Below, in pieces: positions 2,146 to 35,038 of a DNA stretch of 39,633 bases; positions within the stretch are counted from its first letter, which is position 1; every line of letters begins with the position of its first letter. The notes under the pieces are model-generated. The model was not told the origin of the DNA and did no database searches. It saw nothing but the letters and a program-made list of their open reading frames with translations. The DNA is from Saprospiraceae bacterium (lineage in GTDB: Bacteria; Bacteroidota; Bacteroidia; Chitinophagales; Saprospiraceae): contig JASBTH010000287.1 of NCBI GenBank assembly GCA_030148525.1, positions 1 through 39,633 of the forward strand, read 5' to 3'. The position numbers and the translations under genes were made by a program.

Positions 2146-2526
2146 GTTCCTTCAAAACAAAGTAATGGCCCGTATTCCGGGCCATGATCCTTTTAGGGTG
2201 GTTGTTTCATTGGTTACCTCAAGTATTGATCTTGAGAAAACACGACTTTTTGCCACTGGTTTGCCCCCCTATTAATCGGACTTACGAACATTTCGGTTTG
2301 AACAATAGATTTTCATTATACTATGTTTCCCGACAGGGTTAGGGACAAAAGTGCGGCCTTTTTCGCATTATAGGTCGAAGTATAAAACATTCTTTTTTGG
2401 GGAAATCATTTCTGTAAAAATGACAACCACCTGCCCCCGGGTTTTGTATTTTAGATGGTCCTCCCACGATGCAGAGCAGCCACCTCATCGGATGAGCGAT
2501 CACCAAGCTCACTCAACCGAATACCT
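2146..2526. other. Leader/intergenic region before the histidine kinase
   Basis: No gene is supported. An 8-bp hairpin (ATGGCCCG 2165-2172 with CGGGCCAT 2178-2185) is the main structure. TATTTTAG, close to the -7 consensus, ends at about 2453 and follows GGTTTTG. That places a likely transcription start downstream of ATG 2455 and favours ATG 2527 as the start of the kinase. Confidence 0.35.
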
Positions 2527-3945
2527 ATGACCTCCCTGGAAAAAAGTCCTGAATTACTGGCCGACCTGCGTGCTTTAGAGGTGTTCGAGGGCCTGCCCGA
2601 CGAGGATTTGCAATGGTTGATTGATCACTCCGAATACAACCTGTACAAGGCAGGGACCAACTTATTCAATCCCGGTGATGCGGTCGATTATATGCAGGTA
2701 CTTCTGCGGGGGCGCTTCGTCATTTACTTTCAGCAAGACGGGAATATCCGGGAATTGAGTACCATGGAGGCAGGTGATGTGGCTGGTGTATTACCATTCT
2801 CAAGGATGGTGGAAACACAAGCTACCGGACGCATCCAGGAAGATCTCTATACACTGGAATTACATAAAGATTGTTTTGTGGATATGGTCAATCAAAGCTA
2901 TGAGTTGACCCAGCGGCTGGTAGCCCTCATGTCGAACCGTATCAGGGAATTCTCCCAAATGCGCTTTCAAAATGAAAAGCTTATGGCGCTGGGGCGCCTG
3001 TCGGCCGGCCTTGCCCACGAGCTGAATAATCCGGCTTCGGCAATGGTGCGTTCGGCCGAAGAATTGTACCGCAAGATCCACAAGACACCCGAGCAATTTA
3101 AGCGGATTATTGAGATCGATATAACGCCTGAACGAACCGATCAGGTCAATGCCATCTTATTTCGCCGCATTCAGGCTGGCGTTCAGGACTATTCTCTGAT
3201 GGAGAGCCAGGAACGCCTCGACGATCTGGTCGATTGGTTGGAAGATCACGAGATCGAAGATGCCGACGACCTGGCCGATACATTCGTTGAATTCGGAATG
3301 ACTCCCGATGATCTGGATCAGGTCGAAGCATTAGTGGAACCCAAGGATCTGTCGGCTATTCTATGGTGGCTCGAAAGTACCCTCAGCCTGGAAAAGCAGG
3401 TAGAAGAAATCCGGCAATCGGCCGATCGCATATCCGAATTAGTAAGTTCCGTTAAGAGTTATTCCCATATGGATCGTGGGCCGGGTATGGAACCCACCAA
3501 CCTGAAGGAGGGTATTATCAGCACCCTGGTAATGTTGAAGCACCGCCTTAAGGACTGTCAGGTGAAGCTGATAAAGGATTTTCCCGAAGACATCCCACTG
3601 ATTAAAGGTTATCCCGGAGAACTCAATCAAATATGGACCAACCTCATCGTTAATGCCCTCGACGCGATGGAAAAGGGAGGCACTTTGCGCATTGCGGTAG
3701 AACCGGTGGATAATTTTGTGCGGGTACGGATCATTGATTCCGGACACGGCATTCCGGAAGAGATCCGGTCGCAGATATTTGAACCCTTTTTCACCACCAA
3801 AAAAATAGGCTCAGGAAGTGGGATGGGCCTCGACATTGTTAAGCGGATCATGGACCGTCACCAGGCTAGTGTGCGCTTAGATTCTGATGAAACTGGTACC
3901 ACCTTTACCCTGTCGTTCCCCGTCATAGCAGAGAATGGCCAATAA
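2527..3945 (+). CDS. Cyclic-nucleotide-binding-domain histidine kinase
   Basis: 472 residues from ATG 2527. An in-frame ATG at 2455 would add 24 low-complexity residues that do not look like protein. Residues about 15-135 form a CRP-like cyclic nucleotide-binding (cNMP) domain (FNPGDAVDYMQVLLRGRFVIY). A coiled linker leads to the HisKA box with phospho-acceptor His164 (GLAHELNNP). After an acidic helical insert (about 200-300) comes the HATPase domain with N box (NQIWTNLIVNALDAM), G1 (DSGHGIP), F box (FEPFFTTKK) and G2 (GSGMGLDIV). There is no membrane segment, so it is a cytosolic sensor, probably responding to a nucleotide or similar ligand. The response regulator starts 10 bases after its stop, so they form one operon. 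Confidence 0.9.
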   Translation: MTSLEKSPELLADLRALEVFEGLPDEDLQWLIDHSEYNLYKAGTNLFNPGDAVDYMQVLLRGRFVIYFQQDGNIRELSTMEAGDVAGVLPFSRMVETQATGRIQEDLYTLELHKDCFVDMVNQSYELTQRLVALMSNRIREFSQMRFQNEKLMALGRLSAGLAHELNNPASAMVRSAEELYRKIHKTPEQFKRIIEIDITPERTDQVNAILFRRIQAGVQDYSLMESQERLDDLVDWLEDHEIEDADDLADTFVEFGMTPDDLDQVEALVEPKDLSAILWWLESTLSLEKQVEEIRQSADRISELVSSVKSYSHMDRGPGMEPTNLKEGIISTLVMLKHRLKDCQVKLIKDFPEDIPLIKGYPGELNQIWTNLIVNALDAMEKGGTLRIAVEPVDNFVRVRIIDSGHGIPEEIRSQIFEPFFTTKKIGSGSGMGLDIVKRIMDRHQASVRLDSDETGTTFTLSFPVIAENGQ

Positions 3946-3955
3946 ACACACCTTC

Positions 3956-5626
3956 ATGGCAACCGAAAAAAAACCTATTCTTTTCTCTATCGATGACGAT
4001 GCCCAGGTATTGCGGGCTATCCGTAGTGACTTGCGCAGTAAATACCGCAAAGATTTTCGAATTATCAGTGCAGAGTCAGCTAACGAAGTGCTCGATTCAC
4101 TACCCGAGCTCAAAAAAAGGGGAGAGGACGTTGCACTATTCCTGTCCGACCAACGCATGCCCGAAATGCTGGGTGTTGATTTTTTGGAGAAAGCCAAAGA
4201 AATCTTTCCCCTGGCCAAACGGGTCCTCCTTACGGCCTATTCGGATATCGATGCGGCCATTCGCGCTATTAACGATATACAACTCGATTACTACCTGGTA
4301 AAGCCCTGGAATCCGCCCGAAGAAAAACTGTACCCGGTGCTGGATGACCTGTTAGATCAGTGGTGGGCTCACCACCGCCCACCATTTCGCGGCATCCGTA
4401 TGGTTGGCTACCAGTATTCGCCTAAGTCACACGCGTTGAAGGACTTTTTAAGCGGTAATTTGCGTCCCTACCAATGGCTGGACGTCGAAACGCAGACTGA
4501 GGCCGGGGAGTTAATGCGATTGCATCAACTGGATCGCACAGATCTGCCGGCTGTCTTTTTTGAAGACGGATCAGTCCTGAAAGATCCGAATGTCCAGACC
4601 CTCGCCGCTCAGGTTGGGCTCAATCCTCAGGCCCAATCCGATGTATACGATGTGGCTATCATCGGCGCTGGTCCCGCCGGCCTGGCAGCTGCCGTTTATG
4701 GTGGGTCGGAGGGCTTAAAAACGATCCTCATCGAAAAAAGAGCCCCGGGCGGGCAGGCGGGGACCAGCTCACGCATTGAGAATTACCTGGGCTTTCCGAA
4801 GGGCCTCAGCGGGCAGGAACTTACCCGGCGGGCGCTAACACAGGCTACCCGCTTCGGTATTGAATTTTTGTCGCCGCAGGAGGTTACTTCTATAACCACC
4901 CGGGGTGAATACAAACACCTGACATTAGCCGATGGCACTGAATTGAACAGCCGGGCCGTCGTCGTAACTACGGGGGTCGATTATCGCAAACTACCCGCCG
5001 AAGGCGTGGATCAGTTCACCGGAGCCGGGGTGTATTACGGGGCGGCGACGACCGAGGCGGTAAGTTGTAAGAATCAGCACGTCTTTGTGATCGGCGGGGG
5101 TAATTCGGCCGGGCAGGGTGCCGTGTATCTGGCCCAATTTGCGGCCAAGGTGACCATCCTTATCCGGAAACCAGATCTGACCTCCTCCATGTCTTCCTAC
5201 CTGATCGATCAGATTGATGCCATTGATAATATTGAGGTACTGGGGCGCCGACAGGTGGTGCGTGCCCTGGGAAAAGACCGACTGGATTGTATTACCATCG
5301 AGAATCTGGATGATGAAAGCCGGGAGGACGTACCGGCAGGAGCTCTTTTTATTTTTATCGGAGCCCGGCCGTATACCGATTGGTTGGGCGAAGAACTGCT
5401 TCGCAATGAAAAGGGATTTCTGCATACAGGACGCGATCTGGTAAATCAGAAAAGCTTTCTAAAACACTGGAAGCGTGAGCGTGAGCCCTATCTCTTAGAA
5501 ACTAGTGAACCCGGTATTTTCGCTGCCGGCGACGTACGTGCCGGCGCCATGAATCGAGTGGCTTCCGCAGTCGGAGAGGGAGCCATGGCCATCAAATTTG
5601 TACACGAATACTTAGCAGAAACCTGA
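3956..5626 (+). CDS. Response regulator fused to glutaredoxin-like and thioredoxin-reductase-like domains
   Basis: 556 residues from ATG 3956; an ATG at 3935 would overlap the kinase gene. Numbering is from 3956. The receiver domain (1-125) has acidic residues in FSIDDD, phospho-acceptor Asp65 (LSDQRMP), Thr93 and Lys116. Residues about 145-222 look like a glutaredoxin fold, but the CPxC site reads SPKS (Ser155, Ser158). Residues 233-556 are a thioredoxin-reductase-like FAD/NAD(P) module with GAGPAG, a second nucleotide-binding GGGNSAG, and the C-terminal FAD motif FAAGDVR. The redox CxxC expected near 359-368 is replaced by VYYGAATTEA. It is probably phosphorylated by the preceding kinase. 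Its output is presumably flavin chemistry or NAD(P)H sensing rather than dithiol reduction. Confidence 0.9.
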   Translation: MATEKKPILFSIDDDAQVLRAIRSDLRSKYRKDFRIISAESANEVLDSLPELKKRGEDVALFLSDQRMPEMLGVDFLEKAKEIFPLAKRVLLTAYSDIDAAIRAINDIQLDYYLVKPWNPPEEKLYPVLDDLLDQWWAHHRPPFRGIRMVGYQYSPKSHALKDFLSGNLRPYQWLDVETQTEAGELMRLHQLDRTDLPAVFFEDGSVLKDPNVQTLAAQVGLNPQAQSDVYDVAIIGAGPAGLAAAVYGGSEGLKTILIEKRAPGGQAGTSSRIENYLGFPKGLSGQELTRRALTQATRFGIEFLSPQEVTSITTRGEYKHLTLADGTELNSRAVVVTTGVDYRKLPAEGVDQFTGAGVYYGAATTEAVSCKNQHVFVIGGGNSAGQGAVYLAQFAAKVTILIRKPDLTSSMSSYLIDQIDAIDNIEVLGRRQVVRALGKDRLDCITIENLDDESREDVPAGALFIFIGARPYTDWLGEELLRNEKGFLHTGRDLVNQKSFLKHWKREREPYLLETSEPGIFAAGDVRAGAMNRVASAVGEGAMAIKFVHEYLAET

Positions 5627-19216: not shown

Positions 19217-22200
19217 TTACTGGCAACCTTCGGGTTTGGCAGCTTGCAGATATATATTCACTGGTTGTCCGATACTGAGCATGGCGCCTGCTTCGGGCTC
19301 CTGCTTCCAGACGAAATAATCATCGGGATTACTGCTGGCCCCTTCCACCCGACCAACAACCAATTGGCGGCTCGAAATGTTGAAGGAAGCCTCGGAAAAT
19401 CGCTGGCACACCAGATTAGGCACCTGTGCCTGGCCGGTATTTCGCACACTGATAATGGCTCCGACGGTACTTCCTTTGGGTACTTTTACGCCCGACTCTA
19501 GCTCTTGCGGCGTAATGCGCTCCCCGTCGTAATAGAGGAAGAGAATGGTGTTTTCTTCCAGCTTGCGGTCGTATTGTTTATCCCGGACAACCAGGTCAAT
19601 ATTCAGGCGTTCCAGCTTGCGGCGATACTGTTCGAACTCGTCCGACCCAATGAGCGAAGGCAGGGGCACTTCCGGCGGCACACTGCGGGTGATAGTCAGA
19701 TAGATGTTACGGTTTTCCTTTACCTGTGAAAAGGGGCGCGGTGTCTGATCGATCACTTCGTTCGGAGAACGGTTTAACAGGAAAACGGAATCGAGGACCA
19801 CCACACTGAACGATCGCTGGCGCGCCTTTTGTTTGGCCTCATTAAGAGTCATTCCCCGGTAATCGTGCACTTCCAGAGACTTACCGTGGTTGGTGTACAG
19901 GTTGAGACAACCTTTCAGTAAAAAGAAAAAGAGTACGACGAAACCAGTCATTACCGCCAGATTCCTCAAAAAAATGGGAGCGGATAAAAAGCCCCAGATG
20001 TTTTTCCCAATCCGTTTGATGACATTATCCTCCGGGGAGGATTGTTCTTGTGTTTCGTTCATTCCTTGAGGTTGTTCCGGTGAGGCTCCGAGAATGGTTT
20101 CCTCAGCGGTAGATTCGGCCATCTGGCTTTGTGTTTGTTCTTCGATGATGGCCCGTTCGATCCGATCTTTGCGGTCTGCAAATTGCAGGATCTCCCCGAT
20201 GAAGGCAGCCGGTTGGTATCCGTTGAGTGCTGCCTGGTGGAAAATCGCAGTAGCAGGTGTCATTCCCGGCAAGGAGTTTACTTCTACGATGATCGTCTCT
20301 ACGCTGTGGTCCGAAAAGACTCGTACAAAAGCATCGATCCGTGCATAGCCTTGTACATCGAGAATGCGAGCTGCCTTCTCCAGGTCGGCTTTTACCTGCC
20401 TGGCGATAATCTCGTACTGCTCGGGATCTTCCGCAAATCGGGCAGGCGTGATATTTTGGCCCTCGCCGGCCAGGAATTTTTCTTCGACCGATAAAACCTC
20501 GCCACTAGACAGGGCTTCGGAGGGTTCGAACACTTCGTATTCAATAGTGCCGTCAGGTGCAATATGAGTCACCAATCCTCCCGTGATTTCTAAAAAACGA
20601 GTAGCGCCTTCGGCGGTAATCAGGGTCTCAAACAGCACTTGATCTTTGATCGGAAATTCTTCCTTCATGCCTAAACGCAGGGTACGGCGTGCTTCTTCCC
20701 CGGTACTACCCTGCGGCCGGAATAATAAACGGGCGTAGGCCTGTAACTCCTCCCGTTTATTGATCACGATCACCGCTGAGCTACAGCCATCATCGACGGG
20801 TTTGGCAACGAGGGGGTAAGCGAATTGTTGTTCGATCCGTTCCACGAATTTTGTGGGATCAGCCTGGTAATCCGATCGGTCTAGTAGCAGTTGCTGCGTT
20901 ACTGAGAAGCCATTTTTCTTCAGGGTTTGCAGTGTCCGGTATTTATCGATGGTGATACCGGAGGATCGCGGTCCGGACCCGTTATAGGATAACCCCCGTT
21001 TATCCAAAGCTGCTTGCAGGGTACCGTCTTCGCCCGGTCGTCCGTGCAGAGCAATGAATACCTGGTCCACCTCGGCGGGTAATTGATCCAGGGTAACGGG
21101 ACGGGGTGCTAGTAAAGCTCCCGAACCGGCGTATTTTTCAGTTATGGCCCGACACTGGTCGACAATATCTACCAGGACCGGATGCGGATTGTAATCGCGC
21201 ACCTTATCCCGAATATCATCGGCATTGTCTTTCAGCAACAGGCTGATGGGCAATTGATACAATTCAAAGGTTTGCGATGTATCCCAGTCGGCCAGGAAAT
21301 AGGGGATGGGATGAAATTGCTCAGAACTCGACAGTTTTTCGTAGACGTTGCGACCACTCTCCACGGAAATATGCCGTTCGAAGGAGGTTCCTCCCAGTAC
21401 GACCCCAATGCGCTTGCGTTCGCTCTGGGAGTCCCTGGCCTCCTGGATTTGCTCATCGACTACGGAGAGTACGGCTTTGTAACCGGCTTGCTCTGGATGC
21501 TCAGCCAGCCTTTCCTGAATAGAGGTGCGAATGATATAGGTCAGGAATTGGGAGGGGTTCAATCCGATCTCGGCCGCCTGGTGAAAAAAGAAGGAAGAGG
21601 GCAGCATGCCCGAAGTCGTGTTGGGGTCATTCAGGAACACCTGATCATCCTTGGTGATGAATCCGTCGATACGGGCGTAGGTGTGAAACCCAAGTGCTTC
21701 GAAGAGGCGTTCGCATTCCTGGCGGATGGTATTGATCTGTTCGGTGGGCAGCTTAATGGGGGTTTCTTTCCGCGACCGGCCGGGCATGTATTTCGAGCGA
21801 TAATCGAATACTTCCCCTCCCTTGACGATTTCGGTAGGAGGGAGGGCTACACATCCGCCGTCCTCCTTCCGGATAACAATACAGCTGAATTCTTTTCCGG
21901 TGATAAAGCCCTCCAGAATAACCTTCTCTTCGCCGAGATGAGCGGTCAGTAAAAAGACTTCATCTGATTCGGGATTGGCCTCCGTTTGTCGGTTCAGGTA
22001 TTGTAGTAACTCCTCCGGGTGGTGGATGGTAGTGGTATCGCCCCGGAATGTGATATCGAGTGGAAAACCAAGTCCGTCGCGAATGTCGGTCAGGTATCGA
22101 ACGTGATCAACCCGGTCGTAGGTACTGCGGTCCCGCCAACTGGCAATTGGTATGGTTTCTCGAAAAAACGCCCGGTCGATGGCTTCGCGAAAACCTTCGA

Positions 22201-22849
22201 GCCCTGCTTTTTCGTCTACAATGCTCACCCCGATAGATGAGCCCTGGTTGGCTGGCCGGATAACAATGGGAAAACCAATAGTCTCCGCGGCCTGGTCGTA
22301 CAGGGATTGTACATCCTCTGTCCCGAGCCAATCGTGCCGCTTGACCACCTGAACGGGCGGTGTGGCAAAACCACGCTCCGACATCATCTCTTTTTGCAGG
22401 CCTTTGTCCATGCCTATCTCGCAGGCCCGAACGCCACTGCCGGTGTAGGGGATGCGCAGTGTCTCCAATTCGCGTTGGATCTGCCCGTCTTCGCCGTATA
22501 CGCCGTGCAGGGCCAGGAAGGCTACGTTGATGAGTTGAGGTAACTCTTCGGCGGGAATGACCTTGCCGACTTGCTCGTAGGCTTCGTTGGTTGTTACACT
22601 TTCCTGGTAAACCTGAAAGTGATTGGGACTGCCCGGCAGGGCGGTAACCGGAGGATAGAAATCGCGGATTGACCCTTTGTATAAATAGGGCCAGTCGAGC
22701 TGTATAAAGTTTCGGTGGCTATCGACGAAGATGGGAATGGGTTCGAAAACGGACTTGTCCAGATTGTCGTAAACGGTGCGTCCCCCGGCAAAAGATATCT
22801 CCCGTTCGCGGGAGGGGCCACCGAAAAAGATACCTACCTTGATCTTCAT
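19217..22849 (-). CDS. Tandem D-alanine-D-alanine ligase fused to a membrane helix and three PASTA domains
   Basis: 1210 residues, about four times a normal Ddl. Module 1 (1-~450) has GGPSRER with Glu15, the loop GSSIGV (Ser204), SKY with Tyr354, RID (393-395) and DPNT (408-411). Its usual KP is RP (Arg198) and its EVN is DPN. Module 2 (~479-895) has GGTSFER (Glu491), KP (683-684), loop GCSSAV (Cys689 where Ser is usual), EKF with Phe792 where Tyr is usual, RID (837-839) and EVNSLPGMT (856-864). A Gln/Glu linker leads to a membrane helix (~961-980) and three PASTA domains (~990-1057, 1060-1138, 1141-1204). Topology predicts cytoplasmic ligases and periplasmic PASTA. Ddl makes D-Ala-D-Ala for peptidoglycan; PASTA binds peptidoglycan. 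It is divergent from a MATE gene. Confidence 0.92.
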   Translation of the reverse strand: MKIKVGIFFGGPSREREISFAGGRTVYDNLDKSVFEPIPIFVDSHRNFIQLDWPYLYKGSIRDFYPPVTALPGSPNHFQVYQESVTTNEAYEQVGKVIPAEELPQLINVAFLALHGVYGEDGQIQRELETLRIPYTGSGVRACEIGMDKGLQKEMMSERGFATPPVQVVKRHDWLGTEDVQSLYDQAAETIGFPIVIRPANQGSSIGVSIVDEKAGLEGFREAIDRAFFRETIPIASWRDRSTYDRVDHVRYLTDIRDGLGFPLDITFRGDTTTIHHPEELLQYLNRQTEANPESDEVFLLTAHLGEEKVILEGFITGKEFSCIVIRKEDGGCVALPPTEIVKGGEVFDYRSKYMPGRSRKETPIKLPTEQINTIRQECERLFEALGFHTYARIDGFITKDDQVFLNDPNTTSGMLPSSFFFHQAAEIGLNPSQFLTYIIRTSIQERLAEHPEQAGYKAVLSVVDEQIQEARDSQSERKRIGVVLGGTSFERHISVESGRNVYEKLSSSEQFHPIPYFLADWDTSQTFELYQLPISLLLKDNADDIRDKVRDYNPHPVLVDIVDQCRAITEKYAGSGALLAPRPVTLDQLPAEVDQVFIALHGRPGEDGTLQAALDKRGLSYNGSGPRSSGITIDKYRTLQTLKKNGFSVTQQLLLDRSDYQADPTKFVERIEQQFAYPLVAKPVDDGCSSAVIVINKREELQAYARLLFRPQGSTGEEARRTLRLGMKEEFPIKDQVLFETLITAEGATRFLEITGGLVTHIAPDGTIEYEVFEPSEALSSGEVLSVEEKFLAGEGQNITPARFAEDPEQYEIIARQVKADLEKAARILDVQGYARIDAFVRVFSDHSVETIIVEVNSLPGMTPATAIFHQAALNGYQPAAFIGEILQFADRKDRIERAIIEEQTQSQMAESTAEETILGASPEQPQGMNETQEQSSPEDNVIKRIGKNIWGFLSAPIFLRNLAVMTGFVVLFFFLLKGCLNLYTNHGKSLEVHDYRGMTLNEAKQKARQRSFSVVVLDSVFLLNRSPNEVIDQTPRPFSQVKENRNIYLTITRSVPPEVPLPSLIGSDEFEQYRRKLERLNIDLVVRDKQYDRKLEENTILFLYYDGERITPQELESGVKVPKGSTVGAIISVRNTGQAQVPNLVCQRFSEASFNISSRQLVVGRVEGASSNPDDYFVWKQEPEAGAMLSIGQPVNIYLQAAKPEGCQ

Positions 22850-28071: not shown

Positions 28072-31000
28072 CTAGAAGACGGCGGCAACCTGAGCCCGAC
28101 CCACGTGGACCGTTCTGGCGGATCCAGTTTGCCGGCCCTCGTAGGATAGACTCAGGCGCAAATTTTTTCCCAATTGCTGATCCAATTGCAGGTTCCATAG
28201 GACATTTCGGCCGGGCTGGAGCCCGTTTAAAATGGCGAATCCTACTGGCGAAGAGGGATTCCCGGAGTACTCAATACCCACCAGAGAGACCTGACCTCTT
28301 AAGGTCGTTTTTACCGAACGGTTATAGGTTACTTCGGTGCGAATTTCGCGGGAAATGGCTTCGTCTCCATTTTCTCGTAATTGGTCCTGATCAACCTGAT
28401 AGCGACCGCTAAAAGACCAACGGAATTGCTTGGAAGGAGTCCAGGTAACGGATGGTTCGAAAGACCAAAACTGGAGGGCGAAGTTCTTGGTGTCGAACAA
28501 CTCACTATCGCTTATTCGTTTGCCCCGACTGATCTCGTTCTGCAGGTTCCAGACCTGGTCCAGATTCAGGCGGCTTCTCAGGAAATATTCGGTGCGCTGC
28601 CGGCTTTCAAAACCGGTAGTCTGGGCGATTCGGGAACGATTATCAATGAGCCCCACCTGGGATTCAAAGACGGGCTTTCCCCGATTGAAGAAGAGGGTGT
28701 GCTGCATACCGCTGCTCAGGGCTACCAGGTTACTATCCACGACATTGAGCTGGAAGGGATTGAAGAGCGTACCACCATTCCCACCACTGGTCTTTCGCTG
28801 AATTCGCAGGGAAGACTGGGTGGAAAACCTTGCCAGGAGGGCCTTTAGGTTATCCTTTTCGGAAAACCATAAAATGCGGGGGATGACTGATACACTTTGG
28901 TTGAGCATGACATTGCGGGTTCGGATGAAGTCATTCGTTACCCGCGAAACCCGCACGTAATTTGCCTGATCGGGAAAAGGGGCGATCTCCATTTCGTTGG
29001 GTTGAATGAGGCCGTCATTATTGTACAGAGAATCCAGCCAAATGTATTGCCCCTCTCCGGTGGCAACGCGAATGTAGGTGAAGTCGATTCGCGGCTCCTG
29101 TCCGGTTCCCAGTTCGTAAACTGTTGACAGACGGATAATTCCATTGCCCGGGGAGAGGTTTTGCTGTAAGCGCCCTAAAAAGGTATTACCACCGGTTTCT
29201 TCGGTCAAGTCCCTATCGTTCACCTCCAGGGACCGGTATTGCAAGCGTCCTTTGAGCTGCCAGTTTTTAGCAGCTGCATACCGGGTGTTTACTATCCAAC
29301 TGCTGGCCTGGAGCGCACTTGCCAGGGTGTTTTGTTGAGGCAGTTGATCGGTGCGTCGTTCATATTCCAATTGCCAATTGAAAGCGGTTGAGTCACCTCC
29401 TTCCAGGCCTGCCCACCACTCCCGGAAAGCATAACTCGACGCCTGCAGGGAGTCGGTGGCTATTGTTTCCCGACGGTTGGATTCACCCCGGTATCCGGCG
29501 GTGATGGTCCACTTGCGCTGAAAGGGTAGTTGCCGTCGTAGCTGGATATCTGGTTGCCAAAAGGAGCGATTATCCTCAGCCGTTTGGGCGTTCAATAGAC
29601 TGGTCTGGATAAGGAGCTGACTTTTTTCAGTTTGCAGGTTAGTCTCCAATCCATGTCGCAGGCCGGAGTAGCCGCTGCCGCGCGAAAAATAATCGAGACC
29701 ATAGCGGGCATAGCCGAATTCCGGGTGATTGAATCCGATGCGATTGCGAATAAGGTGTTCATCGGCCGGGTTTACCGTGCCGAGACCCTGGAAGTCGGTA
29801 AGGCTCCAGGTGCGAAGAAATTCCTGTGGCCGGTAGGGGTTGATAAACTGAAAAGAAGCCTCTTTGAATTCGTACTGGATATCTGTAGTCAGGTTCCATC
29901 CTTCCGCCCGGGATGAAAGTGGAATATCTTGTTGAAACTGGGTATACAATGCGGCGGCCCCGTCATCGGAATCATCCCGGGGAGAAAAACGGTTCAAATC
30001 CAGGCTACTGGTTGCCCATTCGGCCCGAAAACGGGATCGTTCGGAGATATTGACTTCTGCACCTGCCACCAATAACTGTTGCTGTTGGGGGGTGGGCAAT
30101 TGGATGACCGGAGCGTAGTCGCCCCGTGGTTCGCAGGTGAGGGGGTCGGGAGGAATCCATTCGTATACCGGTTCATTGGCGAGGCTGCCATCGGATTGGC
30201 GGTAGTTCCCCTTCCCATTACCTACAAAGCTGAACCGGGCCGTGTACAGGGGAATATCGGTACGAGTAGTGAATACCAACACGGAATCCGCAACAGGGCA
30301 GGCGTTGGAAAGGGTATCAGTCAGTCGGTAGGTAGCCCGGGTGGGGTTGGCATTGTCGAGAGGTTGAACACCTGAAACAACGGCCTTTTCGGGGTCATCT
30401 CCGGCACGGAATAGCACATCCCGGTCTTCCTCGCTAAGCTGGAGCGTCAGGGTACTGTTTCGGCTATCTTGCTGGCGATACCATTGGGCGTACACGGTGG
30501 CTTTTTGGGATTCGTAGCGGGAATCCAACAGGGATAGGCTGCGCAGGTAGTTCTGGTCGGCGTACTCGAATTCGACGATAACCCGGCTTTCCCGTTTGAT
30601 GAAGACCTGAGCAGTGAAGGTTATTTCCCCCAGGTTGTAATCGATGACGTAGTCCTGTTCTATACCCCGGGTCAAACGGCGCCCATTCAGGTACACGCGT
30701 TCGGTTCCCGCGAGCACGATAATGAAGCGCTCTCCCTGATTGCCCTGTAACCGGTAGGGGCCCTGGTTACCTTCGGTCAACGGAAGGTTTTGCCGGGCAA
30801 ACTGTCCGCGGGTGATGGCAATGCCGGCGCGGTTGGTCAAGCGGCCATTTCCGATATCTACTTCGTTTGAAACGGTTGCCCCCTGCAGGTTCTTAAAGAA
30901 GCGCATAAAATAGCTGGGTGAGGGGCTAAGTTCATAGTCGCCGGCTGTTAGCTGCGTAGCTCCGCGGTTAATCTGAACATACACCCGGTCAAAGTCTCGG

Positions 31001-31590
31001 AGTTGTTGCGTATTTCCTTCGGGTTGCAGGGGAATGTTTTCGTCGGTAATAGCGGCCAGAATGGAAAAATCATCACCCAGGTCACCTGCCAGCTGCAGAT
31101 TAAAGGCGGAGTTCAGTACGAGGTTTTGCCGATTGCCGAAGGAAAGCCCCCTGGCGAAGCTACCGGAATAATCGAGGTTTTGATTGCCAAACAAGGTGTT
31201 TCCGGCGGTTGATTCCCCGACAGGTCGCGGTGCGGAAGGGGCATCAGCAGGATTTATCCAGCGACTGGAATCAAGCCATGAAAAGGTCGTTTGACGCGGG
31301 AAAGGCAGCACCCGGTAATTGATCGTAATTGGATGTTCGGGGGGCTCTGATCGCCAAAACAAGGTGTTTTGACGGTAAGTCCACCGACTGGAATCGAGCA
31401 CTTGGTTGGTTTCCGCGTGGGTGACTTGTATAGTAGCCGGCAAAACGAGCAGGGTATCCAATGTCAGGCTGTCGGGTATTGGCTGGTCAAGGGATAGGTT
31501 GCGAAGGGTACTGGATACAGGGTTCTGGGCGGTGCAGATACCACTCAGGCCAATAATCAGCATAAGAATCCATAAACATCCCCGGATCAT
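28072..31590 (-). CDS. Large outer-membrane beta-barrel candidate of unknown function
   Basis: 1172 residues from Met at 31590; the frame is open to ATG 31611, but the signal peptide fits best from 31590 (MIRGCLWILMLIIGLSGICTAQ). A beta-rich N-terminal region (~30-330) contains RVYLNGRRLTRGIEQDYVID, resembling short Ig-like repeats. The long C-terminal part (~350 to the end) alternates strands such as KWTITAGYRGESNRRET and LRLSLSYEGRQTG and ends in Phe (AQVAAVF), as outer-membrane barrels do. It has no T9SS sorting domain, which fits an integral barrel rather than a T9SS cargo. I do not recognise a named family. It sits between two T9SS cargo genes. Confidence 0.65.
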   Translation of the reverse strand: MIRGCLWILMLIIGLSGICTAQNPVSSTLRNLSLDQPIPDSLTLDTLLVLPATIQVTHAETNQVLDSSRWTYRQNTLFWRSEPPEHPITINYRVLPFPRQTTFSWLDSSRWINPADAPSAPRPVGESTAGNTLFGNQNLDYSGSFARGLSFGNRQNLVLNSAFNLQLAGDLGDDFSILAAITDENIPLQPEGNTQQLRDFDRVYVQINRGATQLTAGDYELSPSPSYFMRFFKNLQGATVSNEVDIGNGRLTNRAGIAITRGQFARQNLPLTEGNQGPYRLQGNQGERFIIVLAGTERVYLNGRRLTRGIEQDYVIDYNLGEITFTAQVFIKRESRVIVEFEYADQNYLRSLSLLDSRYESQKATVYAQWYRQQDSRNSTLTLQLSEEDRDVLFRAGDDPEKAVVSGVQPLDNANPTRATYRLTDTLSNACPVADSVLVFTTRTDIPLYTARFSFVGNGKGNYRQSDGSLANEPVYEWIPPDPLTCEPRGDYAPVIQLPTPQQQQLLVAGAEVNISERSRFRAEWATSSLDLNRFSPRDDSDDGAAALYTQFQQDIPLSSRAEGWNLTTDIQYEFKEASFQFINPYRPQEFLRTWSLTDFQGLGTVNPADEHLIRNRIGFNHPEFGYARYGLDYFSRGSGYSGLRHGLETNLQTEKSQLLIQTSLLNAQTAEDNRSFWQPDIQLRRQLPFQRKWTITAGYRGESNRRETIATDSLQASSYAFREWWAGLEGGDSTAFNWQLEYERRTDQLPQQNTLASALQASSWIVNTRYAAAKNWQLKGRLQYRSLEVNDRDLTEETGGNTFLGRLQQNLSPGNGIIRLSTVYELGTGQEPRIDFTYIRVATGEGQYIWLDSLYNNDGLIQPNEMEIAPFPDQANYVRVSRVTNDFIRTRNVMLNQSVSVIPRILWFSEKDNLKALLARFSTQSSLRIQRKTSGGNGGTLFNPFQLNVVDSNLVALSSGMQHTLFFNRGKPVFESQVGLIDNRSRIAQTTGFESRQRTEYFLRSRLNLDQVWNLQNEISRGKRISDSELFDTKNFALQFWSFEPSVTWTPSKQFRWSFSGRYQVDQDQLRENGDEAISREIRTEVTYNRSVKTTLRGQVSLVGIEYSGNPSSPVGFAILNGLQPGRNVLWNLQLDQQLGKNLRLSLSYEGRQTGSARTVHVGRAQVAAVF

Positions 31591-31674
31591 AATCGACGTA
31601 ATACAGAACAACCGCTGCGAATGAAACGTATGTCTCCCTGAATAGTATACGGAAGCGGTTTCTTGACAGTTGGC

Positions 31675-32107: not shown

Positions 32108-35038
32108 ATGAGACGACCTTTACAATTTGGCCTCGTGCTTGGTTTGACCTGGTTGCTTGGAACTACTGTAATAGCACAGGATCTCGATCGAAACTTGTAC
32201 CGGACCATCGACGGTACCTATAACAATTTGCAGAATCCCGAATGGGGTAGTGCCTTTGAAAACCTGTTGTTGATAACCGGTCAAATGGGGTATTCAGATG
32301 GTATTTCTGCGCCCGGAGGCATTAACCGACCCAACCCGCGGGATATTTCCAATGAGATTTTCGCCCAGGATTTTATGATCCACGATCCGCTGCAACTCAG
32401 TGACTTCACCTGGGTATTCGGGCAGTTCATTGACCACGATATCGGACTGACTCCGGATGGACAAGAGGATGCGTCTATTGCCGTACCTACCGGAGACTCC
32501 TATTTCGATCCGCGCGAGACTGGTTCCGCAACTATTGCCATGCACCGCAACGTATTTGACCAGTCCACCGGAACCAGCACGGACAATCCGCGGCGCCACC
32601 CTAATGTAATAACCGCCTATATCGACGGGTCGGGAATCTACGGCTCCGATAATGAGCGGGCGGCCTGGTTGCGTTCATTCGTTGACGGTAAGCTAAAAGT
32701 GTCCAGCGAAAATATGCTTCCGTTCAATACCGTAACGGGTGAATTTCAGGATGAAGTCGACCGGGAGGCACCAGAAATGGACAATCCGGTAGGTCTGATC
32801 CGTAAGCAATTTGTAGCCGGCGATGTCCGTGCAAATGAAAATCCTCTACTGCTCAGCTTTCACACGTTGTTTGTTCGCGAACACAATCTGGTGTGCGATG
32901 AATTAAAAGAAAAACATCCGGATTGGGGTGATGAAGAGCTTTATCTGCATGCGCGTAAAATCGTTATTGGAAAGCTCCAATCGATTGTCTACAATGAGTG
33001 GCTGCCCGCAATGGGGGTTGATTTGCCCCCTTATTCCGGGTATGACCCCAGGGCGCACGCTCAGTTATTCAATGCGTTCACGGCTGCTGCTTTCCGGGTT
33101 GGACACACCCTGCTAAATGCCAATCTCCAGCGCGTTATGAACGACGGCTCGGTCCATCCGGAGGGACCTCTTCCTCTGCGACGGGCCTTCTTTAATCCGC
33201 TGGCGGTAATGGAAGATGGTGGTATTGATCCATTCATAAAGGGGATGGCCGTGCAGGTTCAGCAATCTTTTGATCAGCGGGTAGTGAATGACGTCCGGAA
33301 TTTCCTCTTTGGACCTCCGGGAAGCCCGGGCCTGGACCTTGCTTCCATCAATATTAACCGTGGTCGTGAGCGTGGATTACCCGGTTTCAATTCTATACGG
33401 GTAGCGCTTGGTCTCGAGCCGTATCAGTTGTTTCGGGAGATCAATTCGGATCAGCGCGTTTCCGGTCGGTTGTTGGGGTTATACCGCGATGTTGAAGAGG
33501 TTGATCCATGGGTAGGTATGCTCGCTGAAGATAAAGCCTCAGATGGAGATTTATTCGGGGAAACTATCAAACAGTTTATGATAGTGCAATTTGGGTTGTT
33601 GCGCGATGGTGACCGGTTTTTCTACGAGAATGACCCGGTTTTATCCCAATCGGAAAAAGACCTTATCCGCAATACAACTATGCACGATATTATCATGCGA
33701 AATACGGATATCAAACTCATGCAGTCCAATGTGTTTGAGGCCATGCCGCACAATGAAATCTGTGACAATATGGTAGTTGACCTTTCTGGTCGTATCTGGA
33801 CCGAGGAAGGCAATCCTGTTTCGGATGTGGTGATCGACCTGTTATTATCAAATGGGACTATGCAAAGTGTAACCTCCGAAGAGGGTAACTTTGAATTATC
33901 CAGCATTCCGGGGTGTTTTGCCAAAAAAATGACTGCGACCAAGAGCAAAAAGGATTATCAGAATGGGGTAACTACGTTTGACATGGTCTTAGTGCAGAAA
34001 CACATCTTGGGACGCAGTCCGCTTACCTCACCTTATAAGATTTTGGCCGCTGATGTGGACCTCTCGGGGAGCATTACTACGCTGGATTTAATAAAAATGC
34101 GCCGGGTTATTTTATCGGTGGCAACTGATTTTGGCGGAGCCCCGGCCTGGCGCTTTATTCCGGCTGATCACGTCTTTTCTGATCCTACTGATCCATTTGC
34201 CGACAATGTTACCAGTGAGTTAGAGTTCGATCTGCTATCCAAGGATAGCGAACGGAATTATATCGCGATTAAATTGGGCGATTTGAACGGAAGTGCTCTG
34301 ACCACCCCTGCTGCTCAGCAGGCGGAAACTCGTTCTTTTGCAGGTGGATTGACGCTGCTGGCAGATGATCAATCCTTTACCCAAGGCAATGAAATTGCTG
34401 TCACGCTCACACCCGAGCAGGCAGCAGTGTGGACCGGCTGGCAGTTTGGCCTGACCTACAATCCGCAGGTACTGGAATACCTGCGGGCTGAGAGCAGTCA
34501 GTTAAAAGACTGGAGTGATTCAAATGTGGGCGTTGTGGCTGACGAAGGGCGGTTGTTATTCTCCTGGCATGACCCTTCTACACGTGGTGTTACCATGGCT
34601 ACGGAAGAACCCGTGGTTACGCTGTTTTTTAAGGCTCGCCAGTCAGGCAGCCTGAGCGCCTATATGAATTTCCAGGCGGCAAATTTGCAACCGGAGTCGT
34701 ATCGTCCGGATGACGAACCGAAACCTTTGCAGGTATTGTTCTCTGGCGAGCAGGCCCCGATGGCCGGTACGTTTCGGGTGGAACAAAATGAGCCGAATCC
34801 TTTTACACAAAACACTACCATCCGGTATTTTATTCCTGAAGCGGGACAGGTGACCCTGACGGTTTCTGATGCCCAGGGGCGGATTGTTTTGCAACAGCAA
34901 CAAACGGTGAGCCCGGGCGAGCACCAATTCCAGCTGGAGCCGGGAACAACTATGGAAGCCGCCGGCATTTATCAATACCAGGTGCAAATGGGTGAGCAAT
35001 CTGTTACCCGGCAAATGATACGGGTGACCAAAGAATAG
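32108..35038 (+). CDS. Secreted animal-type haem peroxidase with dockerin-like, cohesin-like and T9SS domains
   Basis: 976 residues. Signal peptide ends VIAQ. Residues ~30-560 are an animal haem peroxidase: distal Asp109-His110 (GQFIDHDI), calcium-site-like SYFDPRE (131-137), catalytic Arg241 and Glu244 (VAGDVRANE), and proximal His333 (FRVGHTLL). Next is a short carboxypeptidase-regulatory-like beta domain (SGRIWTEEGNPVSDVVIDL), then a dockerin type I-like pair (TTFDMVLVQKHILG and DVDLSGSITTLDLIKMRRVI), a cohesin-like domain (VWTGWQFGLTYNPQVLEYL), and a T9SS type A sorting domain (EPNPFTQNTTIRYF). It probably produces hypohalous acids or oxidises surface substrates outside the cell. Confidence 0.93.
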   Translation: MRRPLQFGLVLGLTWLLGTTVIAQDLDRNLYRTIDGTYNNLQNPEWGSAFENLLLITGQMGYSDGISAPGGINRPNPRDISNEIFAQDFMIHDPLQLSDFTWVFGQFIDHDIGLTPDGQEDASIAVPTGDSYFDPRETGSATIAMHRNVFDQSTGTSTDNPRRHPNVITAYIDGSGIYGSDNERAAWLRSFVDGKLKVSSENMLPFNTVTGEFQDEVDREAPEMDNPVGLIRKQFVAGDVRANENPLLLSFHTLFVREHNLVCDELKEKHPDWGDEELYLHARKIVIGKLQSIVYNEWLPAMGVDLPPYSGYDPRAHAQLFNAFTAAAFRVGHTLLNANLQRVMNDGSVHPEGPLPLRRAFFNPLAVMEDGGIDPFIKGMAVQVQQSFDQRVVNDVRNFLFGPPGSPGLDLASININRGRERGLPGFNSIRVALGLEPYQLFREINSDQRVSGRLLGLYRDVEEVDPWVGMLAEDKASDGDLFGETIKQFMIVQFGLLRDGDRFFYENDPVLSQSEKDLIRNTTMHDIIMRNTDIKLMQSNVFEAMPHNEICDNMVVDLSGRIWTEEGNPVSDVVIDLLLSNGTMQSVTSEEGNFELSSIPGCFAKKMTATKSKKDYQNGVTTFDMVLVQKHILGRSPLTSPYKILAADVDLSGSITTLDLIKMRRVILSVATDFGGAPAWRFIPADHVFSDPTDPFADNVTSELEFDLLSKDSERNYIAIKLGDLNGSALTTPAAQQAETRSFAGGLTLLADDQSFTQGNEIAVTLTPEQAAVWTGWQFGLTYNPQVLEYLRAESSQLKDWSDSNVGVVADEGRLLFSWHDPSTRGVTMATEEPVVTLFFKARQSGSLSAYMNFQAANLQPESYRPDDEPKPLQVLFSGEQAPMAGTFRVEQNEPNPFTQNTTIRYFIPEAGQVTLTVSDAQGRIVLQQQQTVSPGEHQFQLEPGTTMEAAGIYQYQVQMGEQSVTRQMIRVTKE

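Follow-up and report, generated by a model that had tools for sequence, protein, structure and literature searches.

A membrane-tethered tandem D-Ala-D-Ala ligase with PASTA domains is predicted to replace the ordinary ligase in Saprospiraceae

A gene from a Saprospiraceae bacterium encodes two D-Ala-D-Ala ligase (Ddl) modules, a predicted membrane helix, and three PASTA domains in a single chain. Judged by gene content, this tandem protein appears to replace the ordinary Ddl as the D-Ala-D-Ala ligase of the cell. Across the genomes compared, alignments show its catalytic residues to be lost only in genomes that also carry a separate Ddl, and the dead proteins keep a conserved PASTA tail.

D-Ala-D-Ala is usually viewed as the product of a soluble enzyme acting on its own; in this protein, its synthesis would be covalently joined to a wall-binding tail. 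The gene lies on the reverse strand of the window, the 39,633-nucleotide stretch of DNA that was analysed, and its ATG start is followed by an uninterrupted frame, for 1210 codons in all. The Pfam matches comprise two of Dala_Dala_lig_N (E 2e-43), four stretches of Dala_Dala_lig_C (E 1e-54), and three of PASTA (E 7e-19; 68 bits vs a cut-off of 23.2). The top NCBIfam matches are D-alanine--D-alanine ligase families. By hydropathy, residues 960–982 (LAVMTGFVVLFFFLLKGCL) are the sole clear hydrophobic stretch; they separate the C-terminal ligase module from PASTA domain 1. The two Ddl modules, membrane helix, and three PASTA domains of the original prediction are confirmed by Pfam, hydropathy, and orthologues. 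Its PASTA calls were upheld by HMM search, and the 68-bit score rules out chance matches. The features are:

19217..22849, minus strand, whole gene: tandem Ddl, membrane helix, and three PASTA domains, 1210 aa (Pfam; full-length orthologues)
21485..22849, minus strand, N-terminal Ddl module, aa 1–455 (Pfam; alignment of catalytic residues)
20075..21418, minus strand, C-terminal Ddl module, aa 478–925 (Pfam; alignment of catalytic residues)
19994..20074, minus strand, fast-evolving linker from the C module to the membrane helix (lower identity than any other region in most of the pairs compared)
19904..19972, minus strand, predicted membrane helix, aa 960–982 (hydropathy)
19691..19873, minus strand, PASTA domain 1 (Pfam)
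19430..19690, minus strand, putative PASTA domain 2, with approximate limits (third Pfam stretch)
19247..19426, minus strand, PASTA domain 3 (PASTA match)

In the numbering of the 1210-aa protein, the active-site residues are E15, S204, K353/Y354, R393, D395, D408-x-N410, and S419 in the N module and E491, K683, C689, K791/F792, R837, D839, E856-x-N858, and T867 in the C module. The AlphaFold model of residues 1–925 (67 homologues) has a mean pLDDT of 87 and a pTM of 0.88, which suggests that both modules are held in a fixed mutual arrangement. The least certain loops, 346–352 and 792–797, correspond to the active-site loop with K215/Y216 of DdlB. Solved Ddl structures match one module with a TM of about 0.8–0.89 (by target length). 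The predicted topology places the Ddl modules in the cytoplasm and the PASTA tail in the periplasm.

Elsewhere in the window, a cNMP-binding histidine kinase (2455-3945) directly precedes a response-regulator receiver domain fused to a pyridine-nucleotide disulphide oxidoreductase (3935-5626, plus strand). An animal-type haem peroxidase (PF03098, E 3e-140) with a weak Por secretion tail is encoded at 32108-35038 (plus strand). An 1179-aa ORF at 28072-31611 (minus strand) has no Pfam match at 1e-4.

Many Saprospiraceae MAGs share the fusion over its full length, as do isolates of Lewinella (L. cohaerens DSM 23179) and Neolewinella (N. xylanilytica, N. persica, N. lacunae, N. aurantiaca, and N. 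marina). Its recurrence in these cultured genera excludes a sequencing or assembly artefact, and full-length orthologues in many independently assembled genomes, isolates included, rule out a chimera. Non-fused relatives encode a tandem Ddl of ~900 aa followed by a separate PASTA gene, and occur in other Saprospirales and in Cytophagales (Hymenobacter, Pontibacter, Adhaeribacter, Rufibacter). The locus set holds 34 fused loci and 67 non-fused loci where a PASTA gene was found; in all 67, it adjoins the tandem gene on the same strand. The gene in the window is the fused form of this wider family. Among 346 sampled Bacteroidota, the tandem occurs in just a few genomes, all of them in the window's class.

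Adjacency of a PASTA gene and a single ddl, as stated in the original prediction, was found in seven single-Ddl genomes (G048, G082, G094, G098, G104, G124, and G168). The prediction had suggested, as a possible origin of the gene, the fusion of such a pair plus a ligase duplication. The neighbour pair, also present at the 67 tandem loci, and the duplication both stand, but duplication and fusion were distinct steps: two orders share the tandem, which is old, and the PASTA fusion alone is restricted. The likely order of events, read from these gene arrangements, is ddl-PASTA neighbours, ligase duplication, then fusion. The N and C modules are sisters in the Ddl tree; this relation carries a long-branch warning, so a single duplication is likely, short of proof. 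In L158 (G018) and similar genomes, the PASTA gene closest to the fused tail accompanies an ordinary single Ddl located on a different contig. Such genomes possibly lost the tandem and kept the PASTA part.

Separate Ddls were called with TIGR01205 at its curated cut-off, a single HMM threshold applied to mostly draft genomes. None was found in 46 of 46 tested genomes whose tandem has intact catalytic residues, the window's genome included, and 12 further tandem genomes from other families likewise have none. The search of the window's genome for another ddl, as the original prediction proposed, found none at the TIGR01205 cut-off in an assembly that is 84% complete. Its other ATP-grasp matches are weak or partial, and all fall below that cut-off. 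The ~645-aa ORFs at G058:C3:146072-146968 and G246:C41:12394-13197 have a diverged Ddl-like part (115–120 bits to TIGR01205) and differ from ordinary Ddl.

Thirteen genomes carry both a fused tandem and a separate Ddl (G165, G183, G187, G197, G240, G241, G257, G258, G260, and G406-G409). Eighteen catalytic and ligand positions were compared in both modules of 60 proteins, including G295, a 47th intact member outside the separate-Ddl test. Every covered position of the intact set fits the family signature; in five proteins, the locus ends within the C module. Catalytic positions are lost in both modules of all 13 coexisting tandems; the mildest loss is 3 of 18 positions, in the C module of G257 and G258, and the most severe affects nearly all.

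These replacements appear to have occurred more than once. For INDEPENDENCE, four changes are required on the RecG species tree, and three of these lie on well-supported (starred) branches. A single-clade constraint on all 13 dead tandems is rejected (AU test, p 1.2e-6, RecG tree), and the Ddl tree puts the acquired Ddls in three distinct positions. The RecG and Ddl trees conflict on G260 and G187, which implies transfers and makes three to five independent events likely. A paired sign test on the losses, with only 3–4 independent pairs, falls short of significance.

The two modules are unequal. Active sites were compared across about 107 complete intact tandems in DdlB numbering. The N module has E15, S150, K215, Y216, R255, D257, N272, and S281, and K144 is often Arg. 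Its D-Ala pocket (E15-S150-Y216 triad, K215, R255, and S281) is invariant in complete intact members. Its metal set D257/E270/N272 is incomplete through a conservative change, Asp at E270 in 109 of 110, and the resulting D-x-N motif in place of E-x-N persists in the sole ligase of f30. In the C module, the nucleotide and metal set (K144, D257, E270, and N272) is complete in intact tandems, and the pocket is altered in all of them (S150C, Y216F, and S281T). The proposed ligase duplication is supported, but the copies are not equivalent, each having its own invariant active-site signature. Family f30 has one-module proteins (G624 and G684):

L263:3466-5148 and L264:3481-5223, plus strand, one-module relatives of f30 (intact N-type Ddl and C stub)

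The stub of ~100 aa still resembles the start of the C module. The N module alone probably suffices for D-Ala-D-Ala supply, since these genomes keep only it and the stub and have no other Ddl.

Frames of the dead proteins are open over 1041–1341 residues, and ~900 module codons carry no stop or frameshift. Identity of the PASTA tail to the window is 38–47% in the 13 dead proteins vs 35–49% in intact ones. Module identity falls from 60–70% in intact to 30–58% in dead proteins for N and from 54–64% to 19–53% for C. Pairwise dN/dS by a counting method, with dS saturated in some pairs, is 0.03 for the dead modules of G240/G241, 0.11–0.14 for G408/G409, and 0.15–0.17 for G257/G258, and 0.03–0.16 in intact pairs. 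By these ratios, the dead tandems are under purifying selection in close pairs. Older dead pairs in genus g175 have omega 0.39–0.56 and module identity of 24–32%, which is compatible with mere retention of dead modules as the leader of a PASTA protein. The set still matches Ddl families, and domain-based annotation therefore misleads for these pseudo-ligases.

We consider it fairly probable that the cell has no D-Ala-D-Ala ligase other than this gene product, whose two covalently joined Ddl modules lie in the cytoplasm and are anchored by one membrane helix to a periplasmic tail of three PASTA domains. The N module, with its D-x-N metal motif, would carry the D-Ala-D-Ala activity. The C module, with an intact ATP/Mg site and an altered D-Ala pocket, would be a specialised partner, either with a regulatory or structural task or with a specificity that has changed. 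The PASTA tail may tie the protein to nascent peptidoglycan or to a lipid-linked precursor, and would have a role of its own. Once an ordinary single Ddl is acquired, tandem catalysis would decay and the membrane-spanning protein would stay.

Retention of the protein after loss of its catalytic residues suggests a second, non-catalytic job. Four g17 genomes retain 7 of 7 nucleotide and metal residues in the dead C module but only 2 of 9 D-Ala-pocket residues; G257 and G258 likewise retain 7 of 7, and G260 retains 6 of 7. This pattern is indirect evidence of a non-catalytic function, which may be ATP binding. It is possible, if doubtful, that the protein is a transmembrane wall monitor on a ligase scaffold. 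The C module would be an ATP-binding regulatory half and the PASTA tail would read a periplasmic precursor; in several lineages, the protein would be a true pseudoenzyme with signalling or scaffolding functions only.

A feedback sensor, in which PASTA binding to wall fragments or lipid II alters ligase activity via the C module, is somewhat unlikely. The conserved ddl-PASTA neighbourhood and fusion and the retention of the protein after catalysis is lost agree with it, but the linker from ligase to membrane is the fastest-evolving part, and the PASTA part is a separate chain in many species. Its precedent is Staphylococcus aureus Stk, whose PASTA domains bind pentaglycine-lipid II and trigger the kinase (PMC6135852). 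By this analogy, the wall-to-ligase signalling suggested in the original prediction is plausible. The analogy to PASTA kinases is architectural only because the S. aureus kinase showed no interaction with Ddl in a two-hybrid test (PMC6135852).

An anchored simple ligase, with redundant Ddl halves forming a covalent dimer, PASTA domains serving only localisation, and dead modules persisting passively in frame before an essential PASTA part, is unlikely. Ddl enzymes are homodimers, which would suit such a unit. The adjoining PASTA genes at 67 of 67 located loci, the restriction of dead cases to fused proteins (13 of 13), and the fast divergence of the g175 dead modules also agree with it. Passive persistence fits poorly with dN/dS of 0.03–0.17 in dead modules of three genera, with ~900 codons free of stops and frameshifts, and with six dead C modules that retain all nucleotide and metal residues. 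The N and C modules do not appear to be redundant copies because their active sites are invariant and different.

Two specificities, with the N module making D-Ala-D-Ala and the C module another dipeptide or depsipeptide such as D-Ala-D-Lac, are improbable. Both modules decay once an ordinary dipeptide ligase arrives, as if D-Ala-D-Ala supply sufficed. Phe occupies the Tyr216 position of the C module in every intact member (F792 in the window), a single residue that is not proof of D-Lac activity. Cys150 and Thr281 are further changes in the C module, with no precedent known to us in D-Lac ligases. M15 (VanX-like) dipeptidases are uninformative as depsipeptide support, being present in 28 of 29 genomes and in all classes. 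Phe vs Tyr at this site sets depsipeptide vs dipeptide activity in lactic acid bacteria (PMC5996685), so the specificity of the C module may have changed.

Under the preferred reading of a membrane-tethered sole ligase, the same replacement has been repeated several times in evolution, as in an experiment: an ordinary ligase comes in, catalysis goes, and the membrane-spanning body is kept. The dead tandems would be natural separation-of-function variants. They open to test the idea that Bacteroidota match precursor supply to the state of the wall through Ddl proteins and their PASTA partners.

Ddl and PASTA are known families, and the tandem-PASTA architecture is probably visible in domain databases. 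No description of a tandem Ddl, a Ddl-PASTA fusion, a Hymenobacter Ddl, or repeated pseudo-ligase conversion was found in the literature covered, a scope with few subscription papers. DdlA and DdlB (TIGR01205, PF01820+PF07478) share the fold, catalytic residues, and role in peptidoglycan precursor supply, whereas the tandem protein has two unequal modules in one chain, a membrane tether, and a PASTA tail, with E270D in N and S150C, Y216F, and S281T in C. PASTA Ser/Thr kinases (PknB/PrkC/Stk) likewise join a cytoplasmic enzyme through a single membrane helix to periplasmic or extracellular PASTA repeats, but the enzyme part here is an ATP-grasp ligase and no kinase. The chlamydial MurC-Ddl fusion (NF011171) also has Ddl fused within the precursor pathway; unlike the tandem, it has one Ddl module, is soluble, and lacks PASTA. 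The F-type Ddls of Leuconostoc and Lactobacillus, which are D-Ala-D-Lac ligases, have Phe at the Tyr216 position as the C module does, but are single-module enzymes, and the C module additionally has Cys150 and Thr281.
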